The notes beneath the pieces were generated by a model. It saw only the letters and a list, made by a program, of their open reading frames with translations, had not been told where the DNA came from and searched no databases. From Halarchaeum grantii (lineage in GTDB: Archaea > Halobacteriota > Halobacteria > Halobacteriales > Halobacteriaceae): 64,000 nucleotides of DNA. The translations under genes and the position numbers were made by a program. Positions 41,750 to 51,086 of the stretch are shown here, in pieces (within the stretch, counting starts at the first letter, position 1; the number at the start of each line of letters is the position of its first letter). The stretch is from positions 248,001-312,000 of the forward strand of contig NZ_BMPF01000003.1 in assembly GCF_014647455.2 (NCBI RefSeq). The letters are read 5' to 3'.

Positions 41750-44656
41750 TCAGGAGGGGGTGCCGAGGACGTCGTCCAAGACGGCGGCGAGCGCCTTCCG
41801 TAGGTGCTGGTGGAAGGTCGGCCCGGAGACGCCGAGGTCGGACGCGACCTCCTCGCCGGTCCGCTGGCGCGGCCACTCGAAGTAGCCGTTAGCGTGGGCG
41901 GCGCGGAGCGTCTGGAGCTGGCGGTCGGTCAACATCTCACCGAGGTCGTGGCGGACGGAAGACGCGGCGGTGTCGGGCGTCGCGGTTCGCCGCGAGAGGT
42001 CGGCCGAGGGGAGGTATGTGCGGACGCCGTCCGCGAACGCGCGGACGTCCGTGGACGGCCGCACGACGGCCGTCACGCTCCCACCGTCGGGCGTCGCGTG
42101 AATGTGCCGGATGGTCGCGGCGCGGTCGGCGAACGCCTCGACGACCGGCGTGTTCGAGACGACGAACGCGAGCAGCGTCGTGTCGGACGCCGAGCGAACG
42201 ACGTCGGCGTCCGTGACGGTGACGCTCTGCTCGGCGGCGGCGAGGACGTCGTCGGCGCCGCCATCGACGGTCGCGTACACCAGCCACGCGTCGTCGTGAG
42301 GGGCGACCGCGTCGACGTCGAGCGTCCGGTCGGCGCGGCGCGCGAGCGCGAACAGCGGGTCGTCGACGTCGTCGAGGTCGAACTCGAGTTCGAGCGAGCC
42401 ACCGGAGAGGAGCGTCTCGCTCCGCTCGACGGTGTCGAGGGCGTTCGCGATGTGCGCGGCGAGTTCGACGAGGACGTCGCGTTCCTCGCCGACGAACGCG
42501 TCGGGGACGCCCGCGTAGAGTTCGAGGACGCCGTAGTCGGTGTCGTTGTAGCGAAGCGGGAGCGTTATCGCGCTCCTGAACCCGCGTGCCATCGCCTCGC
42601 GCCGGAGGTCCGCGACGGTGGGGTCACGGAGGACGTCCTCGACGACGACGGGCTCGCCAGATTCGACGGCGCGGCGAGCGCGGCTGTGCTCGGCGTCGCG
42701 TTCGATGACGTAGTCGAGGAAGGACTCGCCCTCGCCCGCCCACGCGGCGACGTCGATGTCGGGGTCGAGCGTCCCGATCCACGCGAGCGCGTAGCGGTCG
42801 TCGGTAGCGAGGTTCTCGCAGACGGCGCGGAGGACGCTTCCGCGCGAGTCCGCCTGCACGAGCGCGCCCATGATGTCGCGAATGACGCGGTTCAGTCGGT
42901 TGAGGCGCTGGAGGTCGCGGTTCCGTTCGCGGAGCTGGACTTCCGTCTCGCGCAGGTCGGCTTCGCGGGCGGCGCGTTCGAGCGCGCTCGTCGCGTTCGT
43001 CACGAGGAGGTCGGCGACGGCGGCGTCGCGTTCGCCGAACGAGGACCGGTCGGGTGCACCGGCGACGAAGACCCCGTGGTCGCCGAGCGGGTACGCCATC
43101 GCGCTTCGGGCGTCCGGCCACGGCGCGTGCTCGGCGTCGAGGTCGTGTTCGACGACGGTGCGCTGGTCGACGAAGGCGTCCCAGACGAGGCGGCCGCCGC
43201 CCGACGCGTCGACCGGCGGGAGGTCGCCGTCGCCGGCGACGGGGCGGAGGCGGCCGTCGGCGTCGTCCCAGCGATAGACGGCGATACGGGGCGCATCGAG
43301 GACGTCGTGGGCCGCCTCGACGGTGATGTCGGCGACTTCGTCGGGGTCCGAGGCGCGCGAGAAGTCGTCCGAGCGCGCGTGGAGGATGGCGAGCGCGCGT
43401 TCGCGGTCGCGGAGCGCGGCGGTGCGCTCGATGCGGTCGAGGGCGGCCGTGGCGTTCGTCGCGAGGATGTCGGCGAGCGTCCACACGCGAGCGGGCGCGC
43501 TGTGTTCCTCGAGCCCGAAGACGAGGACGCCGTGCGACCCGAGCGGGACGTAGAGGGCGGCGTCGGCGAGTCCGCGCTCGCGGCCGTCGTCGATGTCGGC
43601 GACGGCGTACTGTTCGGGCGTCCCGGAGTGGTAGACGCGGACGGCGGGGGTGTCCTCCGTGAGGTCGTAGTGGAACGGCCCGCTGTCGGCGATATCGGCC
43701 GTCGCGGCGGCGGGAACGAGGCGCTCGGTCGCCTCCTCGACGAGGTAGACGACGCTGTGCGAGACGGGGACGACGTACTCGACGGTGTCGGCGACGGCGT
43801 CCACGACGGCGGTCCGGTCGTCGGCTTCGAGGAGTCGCGTGGCGGTATGCTGGAGGCCCTCGAACGCCCGCTCGTAGCGCTCGCGTTCCGTGAGGTCACG
43901 GCCGATGCCGGCGATGCCGACGACGTCGCCGTCGTCGCCGTAGAGCGGGGCGGCACTGAACTCGAAAGGGGTCGTCCCGCCGTCGTCGCGTTCGAGCGGG
44001 AGTCTGACCGTCACGGACTCGCCGTCGAGGACGGCGGCGATCGTGGCTTCGAGGGCGTCGTGATGCGTCGGTGGGACGACGTCGGCGGCGGTGAGTTCGG
44101 AGAGGTCGGCGTCGTCGTAGCCGGTGACGTCGCGGAGTTCGTCGCTCCAGTAGAGCGGCGTGCCGTCGGGCGAGGAGACGTAGATGACGTCGTCGAGCGC
44201 GCCGAGAACGGTGTCGACGAACGAGAGGTACTCGTCGAGCACGGCGTCGCGGTGGTAGCGGCGGATGGCGTCGCTCGCGGTGTCGAGGAGGTGCTCGGCG
44301 AGCGCGCGTATGCTGTCAGAGCCGTCCTTCCGGAGGTAGCTCGTGACGGACGCGTCGATGGCGTCGCTCGCGACGCGCTCGCTCCCCTCGGCCGTGAGGA
44401 GGACGAACGGGAAGCGCTCGTCGCGCGCTCGGACGGCGGCGAGGAGTTCGAGGCCGGTCCGCTCGGGCATCGAGTAGTCGCTCACGATGCAGTCGGCCGT
44501 TTCGTCCTCGACGGCGGCGAGGGCGTCCGTGGGGTCGGTGGTCGTCGAGACGTCGACGCCGTCGTCGGCCGCGCGCTCGAGATGCGTCTGCAGGAGGTCG
44601 AGGAACGCCGGGTCGTCGTCGACGAGGAGGAGGCGGTACGGGTCGGAGACGAGCAT
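41750..44656 (-). CDS. Multidomain receiver-PAS-GAF-HTH_10 regulator (bat type)
   Basis: A 968-residue regulator. Residues 1-120 are an intact receiver (D13/D14, phosphoacceptor D60 in IVSDYSMPERTG, Lys in YLRKD). A PAS domain (about 145-260) and three GAF-like domains (about 265-405, 420-570, 590-745) follow; ENLATDDRYALAWIG and GVLELYAG mark the last GAF. A BAT-type domain (about 750-890) and the HTH_10 (LTDRQLQTLRAAHANGYFEW, then VASDLGVSGPTFHQHLRKAL) end the protein. It links phosphorelay to DNA binding. The cognate kinase is not obvious; the start MLVSDPYRLLL (44656) has a GCATACCC element about 32 nt upstream. Confidence 0.88.
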   Translation of the reverse strand: MLVSDPYRLLLVDDDPAFLDLLQTHLERAADDGVDVSTTTDPTDALAAVEDETADCIVSDYSMPERTGLELLAAVRARDERFPFVLLTAEGSERVASDAIDASVTSYLRKDGSDSIRALAEHLLDTASDAIRRYHRDAVLDEYLSFVDTVLGALDDVIYVSSPDGTPLYWSDELRDVTGYDDADLSELTAADVVPPTHHDALEATIAAVLDGESVTVRLPLERDDGGTTPFEFSAAPLYGDDGDVVGIAGIGRDLTERERYERAFEGLQHTATRLLEADDRTAVVDAVADTVEYVVPVSHSVVYLVEEATERLVPAAATADIADSGPFHYDLTEDTPAVRVYHSGTPEQYAVADIDDGRERGLADAALYVPLGSHGVLVFGLEEHSAPARVWTLADILATNATAALDRIERTAALRDRERALAILHARSDDFSRASDPDEVADITVEAAHDVLDAPRIAVYRWDDADGRLRPVAGDGDLPPVDASGGGRLVWDAFVDQRTVVEHDLDAEHAPWPDARSAMAYPLGDHGVFVAGAPDRSSFGERDAAVADLLVTNATSALERAAREADLRETEVQLRERNRDLQRLNRLNRVIRDIMGALVQADSRGSVLRAVCENLATDDRYALAWIGTLDPDIDVAAWAGEGESFLDYVIERDAEHSRARRAVESGEPVVVEDVLRDPTVADLRREAMARGFRSAITLPLRYNDTDYGVLELYAGVPDAFVGEERDVLVELAAHIANALDTVERSETLLSGGSLELEFDLDDVDDPLFALARRADRTLDVDAVAPHDDAWLVYATVDGGADDVLAAAEQSVTVTDADVVRSASDTTLLAFVVSNTPVVEAFADRAATIRHIHATPDGGSVTAVVRPSTDVRAFADGVRTYLPSADLSRRTATPDTAASSVRHDLGEMLTDRQLQTLRAAHANGYFEWPRQRTGEEVASDLGVSGPTFHQHLRKALAAVLDDVLGTPS

Positions 44657-44726
44657 TCGGGTTCCCACCTAGAGCGAGCGAACGGGTATGCGTTTCGCGG
44701 TTTTCGAGCCGTGAGCGGGGGGTGTC

Positions 44727-45728
44727 TCAGTCCTCGGTCGAGTTCGCGCGCGGCGTGTACCGGTAGCGCGCGGCCGGCGTGAGGACGACGTAGTGGCCCG
44801 ATTCGGCGTCGTGGACGACGCGCCCGTCCACGTCGATGGCGACGTCGACGAGGTCCTCGAGCGTCGCGACGTCGACGACCGCGTCCGCCGTGTCGGGCGG
44901 CACGCGTCCGGCCGAGATCCACGCGTCGTAGCGGTGTCGGTGCAGGTCCTCGGCGACGGCCGCGAGCGACGGGCGGTAGGCGCGATGCCACGCGAGGACG
45001 CCGGCGGCGGTGAGCGCGAGCACCGCGCCGAGGCCGCCGAGCGCGGGGGGCGGAACGAGCCGTGCGGACGGCACGGGTACGGTCCGCGTTCGCGGCGTGT
45101 CGTGGTCGCGCGCATTCGACGGCGTCGCGGCGTCGTACCAGTCGCCGTGGAACGTGAGCGGCGCGCGCTCGGTGACCGTCCCGGTGTAGCCGGCGAGCGT
45201 GTAGGTCGCGTTCGCCCGGACGGCGACGCTCACCGTGCCGGCGCCGCCGACGTCCGCGCGGTGGGTGGCGAGGCGCTCGCGCACGCGCTCGGTGTCGATC
45301 GCGACCGGGGTGGCGAGCGCGCGCGTGTCGGACGCGGTCCGGGTGGTGAGCGGGACGCGGCGCGTCCAGAACGTCTCGCCGTCGCGCGTCGCGGAGTAGA
45401 CGAGCGTCACGGTCTGTGTGACCGAGTCGAAAGAGGCGTTCGAACTGGCTAGTGTCGCTGTCATGCGGAGCGTCGGCGCCTCGCGCGGGATGACGGCGGG
45501 GTCGCGGAGGACGGTCCCGGAGTCGTAGAGCGACGTGTTCTCGGTGACGGTGGCGTTCGCGTCGAACGCGAGCGTGGCGCGCTGGGCGTTCTCGCGGTCG
45601 GTGACGTCGGTCGTGGGCGGGTGCGTCGCCGTCCAGCCGGCGGCGCCGAACGCCACGAGCGCGAGGACGCCGAGGACGAGCGCGACCTGCGGGCCGCGTT
45701 TCGCGAGGAGGTAGGTGAGTCGGAGCAT
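44727..45728 (-). CDS. DUF5305-like membrane protein of the SipW cassette
   Basis: A 333-residue protein with an N-terminal helix (about 14-34), an extracellular domain of about 190 residues rich in Thr/Asn (ATLAFDANATVTENTSLYDS, TFWTRRVPLTT), a second helix near 230-250 and a cytoplasmic alpha/beta tail (DAWISAGRVPP, YVVLTPAARYRYTP). This layout is that of haloarchaeal DUF5305 proteins, which commonly accompany signal peptidases. It begins 5 nt after the preceding secreted-protein gene, last in the four-gene unit. A role in assembling or anchoring the secreted subunits is inferred. Confidence 0.72.
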   Translation of the reverse strand: MLRLTYLLAKRGPQVALVLGVLALVAFGAAGWTATHPPTTDVTDRENAQRATLAFDANATVTENTSLYDSGTVLRDPAVIPREAPTLRMTATLASSNASFDSVTQTVTLVYSATRDGETFWTRRVPLTTRTASDTRALATPVAIDTERVRERLATHRADVGGAGTVSVAVRANATYTLAGYTGTVTERAPLTFHGDWYDAATPSNARDHDTPRTRTVPVPSARLVPPPALGGLGAVLALTAAGVLAWHRAYRPSLAAVAEDLHRHRYDAWISAGRVPPDTADAVVDVATLEDLVDVAIDVDGRVVHDAESGHYVVLTPAARYRYTPRANSTED

Positions 45729-45733
45729 ACGTA

Positions 45734-46234
45734 TCAGGTCGTGACGGTAGTCGAACGGTTCGGTGCGGAGACGGTGACGCCGGCCCCGTCGGCCTCGACG
45801 TCGAAGGCGAGCGAGCTGCCGTCGCTCGCGGTCCCGTCGACGGCGACGTCGACGGTCCGGTTCGCGCCCGCCGCGAGGGTGACCGACGCGCTGTCGCCGA
45901 CGGTCGCGCCGTCGACGACGAGGTCGGCGTCGCTCGCGGCGTCACCCCGGAGCACGACGGTGACGGTGGTGGACTGACCGAGGTAGTTCGTGACGGTGAC
46001 GAGTCGGCTCGTCTCGTTCGCGGTGACGGCGTCGGCGACGTCGAGCGCGAGGAGGCCGTTCGCGTCGGAGGCGACGGGGACGGACGACCCACGGTCGAGC
46101 GCGCCCGTCGTGTACGCACCGCTACCGGCGACGCCGTAGGCGAGCGCGCCGACGAGCGCGAGCGAGAGGACGGCGACGAGCGTCGTGTGCGACCACCCGC
46201 CGGACCGGCTCCGACTCCGGCGTCGGCGACTCAC
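45734..46234 (-). CDS. TasA/DUF1102-like secreted subunit B
   Basis: A 166-residue protein beginning at GTG 46234, which overlaps the signal peptidase stop as GTGA. A basic head (SRRRRSRSRSGG) precedes a hydrophobic helix (TLVAVLSLALVGALAYGVAG), then GSGAYTTGALDRGSS, and a beta-rich domain (LVTVTNYLGQSTTVTVVLRG). The motif (F/Y)TT..(V/L)DR directly after the helix is shared with the subunit at 47252, as is GL(I/L)AL about 20 residues later. Such proteins are SipW-dependent in TasA-like systems. It probably is a minor subunit or anchor of the fibre. Confidence 0.7.
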   Translation of the reverse strand: MSRRRRSRSRSGGWSHTTLVAVLSLALVGALAYGVAGSGAYTTGALDRGSSVPVASDANGLLALDVADAVTANETSRLVTVTNYLGQSTTVTVVLRGDAASDADLVVDGATVGDSASVTLAAGANRTVDVAVDGTASDGSSLAFDVEADGAGVTVSAPNRSTTVTT

Positions 46235-47235
46235 TCGAACCCCTCCACGAGGAGGCGGCGGAGCCGCGACCGGGACGCCCGCAGCCGCTCGCCGCCGTCG
46301 ACGACGAGGGCGACGAGCGCGAACAGCGGGGCGAACGCGAGTGCGGTGCAGGCGAACGCGGCGAGCAGCGGGTGGATGGCGTCCAGTCGCGCGACGGTCC
46401 CCTGCGGGAGGACGGCCGGATAGCTCCGTATCGCGACTTCCACGGGGACCGGGCCGGGCGTCGCGGGTGCGCGAACGGTACCGGTGGCGGTGACGGCGGT
46501 GGCGTTTCGCGTCGTCTCGACGGCGTGCAGGCCGGTGGTGTGGACGACGCGGGTCGCCCACGGCTGGTCGGCGACGCCGACGGCGTAGGAGACGGTCTGC
46601 GCGGTGCCGACGGCGAGCGTCGAGGCGGAGCCGGTCGCCGTCGCGTCCTCCACGGCGAGGAAGGTCTCGGAGTGCGACGCGCCGCCGAACGCGACGACCG
46701 CCGCGGTCCCGAGGAGGCCGGCGACGAGTAGCGGGTAGACGACGCTTCGCGCGCGTTCGGGTCGGTCGCTCGCGGGGGCGTCGCGGCGCGCGCCGAGGAG
46801 GCCGGCGGCGGCGAGCGCGCCGATGAGGACGGCGACGTTCTCGCGGGCGATCCGGACGGCGCGCCCGAGGCCCGGGAGGAGCACGGGGTCGCCGTTCCAC
46901 GTCAGCACCGCGCCGACGATGGCGTCGCGCGCCACGGGCGGGTAGCCGGCGCGCTGGTCGGTCACGGGGTTGTTGTCGCCGCGCGTGAGGTAGCCCTCGG
47001 GCGTCTCACCGACGACGCGGTGCGTGGTGTAGTCGCCGCGCGCGGCGCTCCAGAAGGTCACGATGTCGCCGGATTCGACGTCCCCGGCGGGGACGACGAC
47101 GTAGCCGTCGCCGACGCCGATGGTGGGCTCCATGCTGTCCGAGTAGACGTACGACACCTGTACGGGCGCACCGGCGGGTGCGGCGACGAGCAGTGTCGAG
47201 AGCACGAGGACGGCGAGAACGGCGATGCGGAACAA
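46231..47235 (-). CDS. SipW-type archaeal signal peptidase I with C-terminal membrane extension
   Basis: A 334-residue membrane protease. After an N-terminal helix, catalytic Ser34 sits in YSDSMEPTIG, His72 in YTTHRVVGE (His replaces the bacterial Lys) and Asp87 in LTRGDNNPVTD: the archaeal/ER/SipW Ser-His-Asp type. Residues 120-334 add three to four helices and an outer domain (SHSETFLAVEDATATGSAS) not found in a minimal peptidase. It is encoded between two TasA-like genes, 16 nt after the first and overlapping the second, so it likely processes these proteins rather than general secretion substrates. Confidence 0.88.
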   Translation of the reverse strand: MFRIAVLAVLVLSTLLVAAPAGAPVQVSYVYSDSMEPTIGVGDGYVVVPAGDVESGDIVTFWSAARGDYTTHRVVGETPEGYLTRGDNNPVTDQRAGYPPVARDAIVGAVLTWNGDPVLLPGLGRAVRIARENVAVLIGALAAAGLLGARRDAPASDRPERARSVVYPLLVAGLLGTAAVVAFGGASHSETFLAVEDATATGSASTLAVGTAQTVSYAVGVADQPWATRVVHTTGLHAVETTRNATAVTATGTVRAPATPGPVPVEVAIRSYPAVLPQGTVARLDAIHPLLAAFACTALAFAPLFALVALVVDGGERLRASRSRLRRLLVEGFE

Positions 47236-47251
47236 GAACGGGGAGAGGTGC

Positions 47252-47797
47252 TTAGGCGTTGACCGTGACCGTCCCGGAGAGGTCGGTGCTGTTGTTGAGG
47301 CCGGTGGTGTCGACGCTCACGACGACGTAGTGCGTCTCGTCGGGATCGGCGGTGAAGGTAGTACTGGTCGTGTCGACGGCGGTGCCCACGTACCCGCCCG
47401 TGGAGTTGTAGACTGCGAGCTCGACGTTATCGCCAGAGGGGTCGGTGTTGTCGAACGCGTAGCCGAGCTCGAAGCTGTGCGAGGCGGCGCCGTTGTTGGT
47501 GACGTTGAACGCGTACGTCGGCGAGGAGGTCGTGTTGTCGCCGATGCTGAACGTGCTGTCGCCGTTGACGCCGGAGGCGGCGCTGTTCGTGAAGTCGATG
47601 GTGAGCTGGCCGTTGCTCCCGGTCCGGACGAGGTCGGTCGAGGCGTTCCCGGGACTGAGCGCGATCAGACCGGCGTCGTCAGCGACGACGTCCATCGTGG
47701 ACGTCCGGTCGACGGACGCGGTCGTGAACGCGCTCGCGCCGACGGCGGACGCGATGACGACGATTCCAAGTGCGAGTGCAGCGATTTTGAGACGCAT
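47252..47797 (-). CDS. TasA/DUF1102-like secreted subunit A (major fibre candidate)
   Basis: A 181-residue secreted protein. The signal peptide MRLKIAALALGIVVIASAVG ends near ASA-FTT, followed by FTTASVDRTSTMDVVADDAG, a motif shared with subunit B. The mature part is Thr/Asn/Ser/Gly-rich beta sequence (YAFNVTNNGAASHSFELG) with many N-x-S/T sequons for N-glycosylation. It resembles archaeal DUF1102 proteins, a family related to TasA and archaeal bundling pili, whose subunits join by donor strands. It is first in the four-gene unit; a weak CCTTTCC element lies about 32 nt upstream. Confidence 0.75.
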   Translation of the reverse strand: MRLKIAALALGIVVIASAVGASAFTTASVDRTSTMDVVADDAGLIALSPGNASTDLVRTGSNGQLTIDFTNSAASGVNGDSTFSIGDNTTSSPTYAFNVTNNGAASHSFELGYAFDNTDPSGDNVELAVYNSTGGYVGTAVDTTSTTFTADPDETHYVVVSVDTTGLNNSTDLSGTVTVNA

Positions 47798-49381: not shown

Positions 49382-50308
49382 TCACTCGGCCGCGGCGACG
49401 AGGGCGAGCGCGCGCGAGACTGCGTCGCGGGCGTCCGTGCCGAAGACGTAGCAGACGGGTTCGACGCCGTACGCGCCGCGGTGATAGGCGACGGCGGGGA
49501 CGCCGTCCGCGAACGCGCGCCGGAGCTCCGCGTCGCGGCCGTCGTAGTCGGCGTCGAACTCGACAGGGTCGTCGCCTCGCTCGCGGGCGGCGTCGAGGAG
49601 GGCGTCGCTCGTCGCGAGATTGAGCGCACCCCGTATCGTCGCGTCGCGCTCGTTGGCGGCGAGGAGCGCGCCGGCGACGTGCTGGGACGCGCCGAAGGCG
49701 GGGTCGGAGGGGACGTCGATACGCCCGCGAACGGCGTGGACGCGCCCGGGGACGGCGGCGACGTCCGCCTCTCCCGTGGGGTCGGGGAGCGCGCTCGCGA
49801 CGTTCGTCCCGACGTTCGGGACGTGTGCGGCGGCGTCGGCGTCGGCGGCGAGCGTGCGGACGGCGACGCGGACGTCGCGGAGGCGCTCGCGTTCGCGCGC
49901 GGCGGCCGCATCGGGTCCGCGCACGCAGAGGTCGCATTCGAGGCCGTCGAGCGCGGGCATCGCCTCCTCGTGGAGCGCGCAGACGGGACCCCGGTCGACG
50001 AACGACTGGAGGAGGGTCTCGATTTCGACGAGCGCGTCGTAGGCGTCGAGGTCGCCGTCGACCCAGCCGTCGGCGACGCGCGCCGCGGTCCGCCGGAGGC
50101 GCTCGTCGTCCGCGAGACGCTCCTCGACGTGCGCCTGCCCCGCGAGGTACTTGCTCACCGCGGCCTGCGTGATGCCGAGGAACTCGCCGATTTCGCGCTG
50201 GGCGCAGCCGCGCTCGGCGAGTTCGTGCGCGAGCGCGACGCGAACGGCGGGGACGAACGACTCGGCGACGATTTCGGCCGGGAGGCGGAGTCCGTCTCGC
50301 TGCTCCAT
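49382..50308 (-). CDS. ThiR-like regulator (HTH plus ThiN-type domain)
   Basis: A 308-residue regulator. The HTH (CAQREIGEFLGITQAAVSKY) is at about 35-54. A central Cys segment (GPVCALHEEAMPALDGLECD) could hold a metal. The C-terminal 140 residues resemble the ThiN thiamine-phosphate-synthase domain (HVPNVGTNVASALP, DPAFGASQHVAGALLAA, NLATSDALL). HTH-ThiN fusions are the archaeal ThiR thiamine regulators, which sense thiamine phosphates. It is divergent from tenA, and motif TTATACMACMMA sites lie at its own, tenA and thiV promoters. Its promoter GGTATGG is centred about 30 nt upstream of ATG 50308. Confidence 0.83.
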   Translation of the reverse strand: MEQRDGLRLPAEIVAESFVPAVRVALAHELAERGCAQREIGEFLGITQAAVSKYLAGQAHVEERLADDERLRRTAARVADGWVDGDLDAYDALVEIETLLQSFVDRGPVCALHEEAMPALDGLECDLCVRGPDAAAARERERLRDVRVAVRTLAADADAAAHVPNVGTNVASALPDPTGEADVAAVPGRVHAVRGRIDVPSDPAFGASQHVAGALLAANERDATIRGALNLATSDALLDAARERGDDPVEFDADYDGRDAELRRAFADGVPAVAYHRGAYGVEPVCYVFGTDARDAVSRALALVAAAE

Positions 50309-50420: not shown

Positions 50421-51086
50421 ATGCCCATCAGCGACGACCTGCTCGACGCGGGAGAGGCGCTCTGGCGCGCACAGAAGACCCACCCGTTCGTCACCGAGTT
50501 GGCGGACGGCACGCTCGACGAGGCGGCGTTTCGCCACTGGGTCGAACAGGACTACCGCTACCTCCTCGACTACGCGCGCCTGTTCGCCGTCGCGGGCGCG
50601 AGAGCGCGCGACGAAGCGACGATGACGACGCTCGTGGGGATCGCGCACGACACGCTCGCCGAGGAGATGGACCTCCACCGCGAGTTCGCCGCCGACTACG
50701 GTATCGCGCGCGAGGAGCTCGAGTCGGTGAGGAAGGCGCCGACGTGCGAGGCATACACGGGCTTCCTCGTGCGCACGGCCTACGAGGGGTCGCTCGCGGA
50801 GATCGCGGCCGCGCTCTACCCGTGCGCGCAGGGCTACCTCGACATCGCCGCGCACGCCGCCGAGCGCGCGACGGGCGAGCACCGATACACCCCGTGGCTC
50901 GAGGCGTACACGAGCGACGAGTTCCGGGCGGTCGTCGAGCGGATTCGCGACTTCGTCGACCGCTGTGGCGAGCGCTCCCCGGGCGAGCACGACGCGATGC
51001 GCGAGGCGTTCCTGACGAGCGCGCGACTCGAGTACCGCTTCTGGGAGATGGCGTACACGCGCGAGGGCTGGGAGGTGGACGCGTGA
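50421..51086 (+). CDS. tenA: Thiaminase II / aminopyrimidine aminohydrolase
   Basis: A 221-residue all-helical TenA protein. It contains the catalytic Cys135 in YPCAQGYLD, D44 and Y45 in EQDYRYL, and the C-terminal acid region RLEYRFWEMAY (E204), matching the TenA_C class. It hydrolyses aminomethyl-pyrimidine products of thiamine breakdown to hydroxymethyl-pyrimidine (HMP) for reuse. The start MPISDDLLDAGEALW at 50421 is 27 nt from a TATA box. The next gene, a TenA paralog, overlaps its stop by 4 nt. Confidence 0.9.
   Translation: MPISDDLLDAGEALWRAQKTHPFVTELADGTLDEAAFRHWVEQDYRYLLDYARLFAVAGARARDEATMTTLVGIAHDTLAEEMDLHREFAADYGIAREELESVRKAPTCEAYTGFLVRTAYEGSLAEIAAALYPCAQGYLDIAAHAAERATGEHRYTPWLEAYTSDEFRAVVERIRDFVDRCGERSPGEHDAMREAFLTSARLEYRFWEMAYTREGWEVDA

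Follow-up and report, generated by a model that had tools for sequence, protein, structure and literature searches.

A compact four-gene cassette of Halarchaeum grantii, very probably a donor-strand surface-fibre operon and a sister variant of the haloarchaeal Tat-fimbriae

What do two secreted proteins, a signal peptidase and a membrane protein do together when their genes lie head to tail in a haloarchaeal genome? The question was raised by the window, the whole 64,000-nucleotide stretch of Halarchaeum grantii DNA that was analysed, in which 44727..47797 of the minus strand holds the genes for a secreted protein (subunit A), an S26 signal peptidase, a second secreted protein (subunit C) and a DUF5305 membrane protein, in that order. 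The first-pass annotation, made from the letters of the DNA, had read them as a surface-fibre cassette, and we found all four open reading frames, with DUF5305 at the end, at the positions and on the strand it gave. A and the peptidase are separated by 16 nt and C and DUF5305 by 5 nt, and the overlapping start and stop codons that had been described are seen as a 4-nt GTGA overlap between the peptidase and C. The cassette is single-copy, as its A-like, C-like and DUF5305 proteins were the only ones found in the genome. Elsewhere in the window, the gene of a ThiN-domain protein (49382..50308, minus strand) adjoins a TenA gene (50421..51086, plus strand), forming a small thiamine gene pair.

We then found that the arrangement is not peculiar to this species. 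In a sample of 243 genomes of the order, the peptidase has relatives of some kind in 165; few of these are close and full-length, and all 16 other genomes with such a version also have the A–S26–C–DUF5305 order. The same order, which the first-pass annotation had proposed to look for elsewhere, occurred in 16 of the 20 regions retrieved for the highest-ranking peptidase matches, with at least eight families represented. In a named collection of 80 loci, 20 were compact loci like that of the window, and every one of these (20/20) carried all four genes on one strand. The four-gene order thus recurs far beyond chance. Most of the other loci encode a longer peptidase (~385 aa), with DUF5305 as its usual neighbour and several A-like or C-like proteins on either side. 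Both kinds of locus can occur in one species, namely Halobellus clavatus (L058, L117) and Halomicroarcula rubra (L068, L116). The cassettes of Haloferax massiliensis (L063) and Halomicroarcula rubra (L068) are very similar although the species belong to different families, suggesting recent transfer. At a further locus (L050, G163:C1:75000-89000), three consecutive A-like pilin genes precede those of S26 and DUF5305, and C was not detected. An Archaeoglobi MAG (L129) has an S26 peptidase with a related extension next to a pair of A-like proteins, which raises the possibility that the wider system is not confined to haloarchaea.

Among known systems the nearest is tafi, the haloarchaeal Tat-fimbriae built from TafA, TafC, TafE and TafF (Galeva et al., iScience 2025, as cited in PMC12687288), which is taken here as that citing paper, the PDB title of 9P0A and the NCBIfam names present it. 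Subunit A, the probable major pilin (47252..47797, minus strand; 181 aa), begins with a signal peptide of residues 1–23 (MRLKIAALALGIVVIASAVGASA; 47729..47797, minus strand) that has no twin arginine and is of the non-Tat, Sec type. Cleavage was predicted at A23|F24, and this site is supported by the alignment of A residue 24 with the first modelled residue (28) of 9P0A, the Tafi pilus of Natrinema sp. J7-2. An AlphaFold2 model of A computed from 39 sequences (mean pLDDT 81.8) showed a beta-sandwich core, with residues 24–44 unpaired, free of strand and of low confidence in the monomer. Comparison of this model with solved structures by VIA-align revealed the Pyrobaculum bundling pili (7UEG) as the best match (Z 9.5, rmsd 3.8 over 138 residues, yet only 12% identity), together with 9P0A (Z 8.8, 20% identity) and the Sulfolobus thread filament 7PNB (Z 8.4 but 14% identity, a comparison made on the structure of A alone). 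These three archaeal filament subunits head the matches; two tube or cannula proteins come next (Z 7.4 and 7.3), and unrelated entries score about 6–7. Foldseek returned 7PNB alone, and weakly (E 2e-3). Structure prediction had been suggested as a check on the fibre reading, and for A it gave the beta-sandwich fold of bundling pili and of the solved haloarchaeal pilus.

Profile searches of A agreed with this. Searched as a single sequence against solved structures, A gave no useful match and did not find 9P0A; a profile of 18 A proteins, made from the cassette relatives and a second Halospeciosus copy, matched 9P0A at E 1.1e-5, and a wider profile with tafi-type relatives added did so at E 3.4e-27. 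A TafE match of window A by itself (E 0.02) was set aside as meaningless, the signal being carried by the relatives. A Pfam search gave no family match for A or C. The first-pass annotation had tied its reading to a kinship of the subunits with TasA or DUF1102. DUF1102 (PF06510) was absent from the Pfam matches of A and of its 17 aligned relatives, and membership of A in that family was therefore rejected, whereas DUF1102 does match related pilins in tafi-type loci. Bacillus TasA was absent among the 50 structural matches listed for A, an absence that is uninformative either way.

Subunit C (45734..46234, minus strand; 166 aa, GTG start) is TafC-like. Its signal has an Arg-rich n-region, with cleavage predicted at A40|Y41, and the strand that follows is like that of A. 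In A, this post-cleavage segment is the N-terminal strand 24–47 (FTTASVDRTSTMDVVADDAGLIAL; 47657..47728, minus strand), the proposed donor strand. We found that the 24 post-cleavage residues of the A and C families align without gaps and are nearly identical (hhalign probability 98.1%, E 1.3e-13), with an Arg and an Asp invariant, which bears out the common motif reported after the signal peptides; the cores of the two families show no more than a distant likeness (78.6%, E 1.7e-5). A near-identical segment in both subunits fits the expectation of a common donor strand. Some longer relatives of C carry additional modules: Laminin_G_3 in Haloferax mucosum, LTD in Halorientalis, and Malectin with CBM35 in a third genome (G034). 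TafC of the Haloarcula tafi locus likewise has Laminin_G_3, and the C of the window is the bare form without added modules. Lectin- or carbohydrate-binding-like modules in some relatives would fit a tip adhesin. Given a strand common with A, a different core and adhesive modules in relatives, C is probably the initiating or tip subunit of the fibre.

Together, the fold of A and the common strand bear on another reading, in which A and C remain unpolymerised after secretion, as matrix or S-layer-associated proteins, and the peptidase merely processes them. Beta-sandwich folds are frequent among archaeal surface proteins, and to our knowledge no fibres have been seen for this species or for any compact locus. 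However, the best structural matches of A are all filament subunits, and strong conservation marks the strand after the cleavage site in both A and C, making such a matrix role highly improbable. We put the probability that the cassette is instead a surface-fibre (pilus) operon of donor-strand type at about 0.85. Donor-strand polymerisation in this species is what the unpaired residues 24–44 of the monomer model and the strand shared by A and C would suggest.

The peptidase (46231..47235, minus strand; 334 aa, TTG start) passed the TIGR02228 model of archaeal signal peptidase I (63.2 bits, cut-off 51.85). The Ser-His-Asp signal peptidase that had been recognised between the two secreted proteins proved well founded, as its catalytic residues Ser34, His72 and Asp93 are invariant across 54 peptidases. 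The additional part of about 200 residues is likewise present, and consists of about three more membrane helices and an outer, extracytoplasmic beta domain at residues 186–273 (46417..46680, minus strand), which is found in all compact members. The model places helices at 134–151, 162–183 and 289–311, the last being a membrane helix, and gives 186–273 high confidence. By sequence, hhalign linked the outer domain to neither A nor DUF5305, and its score against C (8.7%) was not significant. When the full-length model was compared with solved structures, the matches were mostly to the catalytic domain, with no convincing one for the outer domain; a match of residues 180–274 to the adhesin DaaE (Z 5.1) was within noise and was discarded.

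Which enzyme cuts the subunits can also be considered from these data. The closest solved structure to the peptidase by VIA-align is SipA (4N31, Z 11.8), tied within 1 with the E. coli signal peptidase, and by the title of its PDB entry the Streptococcus pyogenes SipA is a signal peptidase homologue essential for pilus polymerisation. The cassette enzyme might thus, like SipA, serve assembly only, with the subunits processed by a housekeeping signal peptidase, for which the second S26-like protein of the genome (G000:C2:708123-708650) is available. This is quite unlikely in our view, since none of the 54 relatives departs from the catalytic Ser, His and Asp, and since a second locus of Halospeciosus flavus (L081), where an A-like pilin gene overlaps that of a short 195-aa S26 without the outer domain, pairs A with a peptidase in a way that fits processing. 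We infer that A and C are cut by the cassette S26 and not by the second S26 protein. No C or DUF5305 was detected in the neighbourhood of L081; this is the only loss of the outer domain seen in the clade, and its coincidence with theirs hints, from one case, that the domain works with C and DUF5305. An assembly role for the outer part, raised by the first-pass annotation, is plausible. More tentatively, and with the odds against it, the peptidase may be bifunctional, cutting the subunits while its outer beta domain and DUF5305 catch the freed donor strands and drive ordered polymerisation. If true, the enzyme would be a single-membrane counterpart of the usher, and four genes would make a complete pilus assembly system.

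The fourth protein, of 333 aa (44727..45728, minus strand), matched the DUF5305 family PF17231 with 113.7 bits (gathering cut-off 29). It has a membrane segment at 11–35, an outer domain, a second membrane segment at 227–247 and a cytosolic tail; in the Halobacteriales genome QS_8_69_26 (L057:7506-11324), the tail is about 940 aa long, acidic, of low complexity and predicted to lie on the cytosolic side. A search of the literature library gave no paper on DUF5305 or DUF1102. This protein and the anchored outer beta domain of the peptidase probably form a membrane platform or anchor. A Bat-type regulator with the architecture receiver-PAS-GAF-BAT-HTH_10 is encoded 58 nt downstream on the same strand (41750..44668), and it is possible that it regulates the cassette. 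A regulator of this type lies close to 8 of the 20 compact loci and to none of the 59 others (Fisher 4.8e-6, optimistic because the loci are related to each other).

How, then, does the compact cassette stand to tafi? In the Haloarcula locus L156, genes for TafF, TafE, TafA, a DUF7344 protein, TafC, DUF5305 and S26 are adjacent. The likenesses are considerable: the tafi pilins have the same post-cleavage motif as window A and are homologous to it, as 9P0A indicates by profile and by fold, and a TafC-like second subunit, an extended S26 peptidase and DUF5305 occur in both. It could be argued that this is an ordinary tafi locus in which a few features have merely been lost, given that its component classes (TafA/TafE-like pilins, TafC-like, DUF5305, S26) are those of the Haloarcula locus and that the S26 extension is partly common to both types. 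The differences speak otherwise. The signal of window A is non-Tat and has no RR; a simple regular expression recognised Tat-like signals in 3 of the 20 compact A proteins versus 51 of 60 A-like proteins of tafi-type loci. Window A scored 14.7 bits against TafE (cut-off 155) and C had no Taf match, leaving all below the TafA, TafC and TafE cut-offs. The window has no DUF7344 gene, unlike the Haloarcula locus, and DUF7344 neighbours were found at 0/20 compact versus 40/59 other loci (Fisher 2.6e-8, again optimistic as the loci are related). Compact peptidases are shorter, the order of the four genes is fixed, and the peptidase tree places the compact set in one group (100/99) apart from the longer tafi-type set (99/98), the sole intruder being the truncated Halospeciosus copy, whose locus comprises A and a short S26. 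Moreover, some species (Halobellus clavatus, Halomicroarcula rubra) have both types, and mere loss from a tafi locus is therefore unlikely. From the Tat, DUF7344, Bat and cut-off differences, we conclude that the compact cassette is not a tafi member but a sister variant, simpler and with another export route. The first-pass annotation had offered it as a candidate for a little-described system; with a filament structure solved and families curated for TafA/C/E/F, tafi has already made the kind known.

A parallel had also been drawn with Bacillus sipW-tasA. This is right in kind: the Bacillus tapA-sipW-tasA operon likewise pairs a SipW-like peptidase of its own with two secreted proteins that have similar mature N-termini, and there the accessory protein TapA shows a likeness to the donor strand of TasA (Nat Commun 2022, PMC9674648). 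The window peptidase, however, reached 31.3 bits against the SipW model NF046067 (cut-off 190), and the Bacillus operon, as described in PMC9674648, is without DUF5305; the nearest relative is the haloarchaeal tafi instead.

We propose the following mechanism for the cassette. A would be exported probably via Sec, and C with its strongly basic signal; the cassette's own S26 peptidase would cut both after a conserved Ala, freeing an N-terminal segment of the form FTT...R...V..D..GLIAL. As the major subunit, A would polymerise by insertion of this strand into the next subunit, and C would start the fibre and finish at its tip. The anchored outer beta domain of the peptidase and DUF5305 would form the membrane platform or anchor. 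With its pilin, tip subunit, peptidase and anchor, the cassette appears to be the smallest gene set that is complete for such fibres, and this would make single-membrane donor-strand fibre assembly directly testable. DUF5305, found beside both tafi and compact systems, gains a concrete proposed role, and in C adhesive modules appear to be exchanged on a constant base. Furthermore, tafi and the compact cassette share a pilin fold and differ in export, so that delivery in the unfolded (Sec) and the folded (Tat) state to one kind of fibre may be compared in natural systems.
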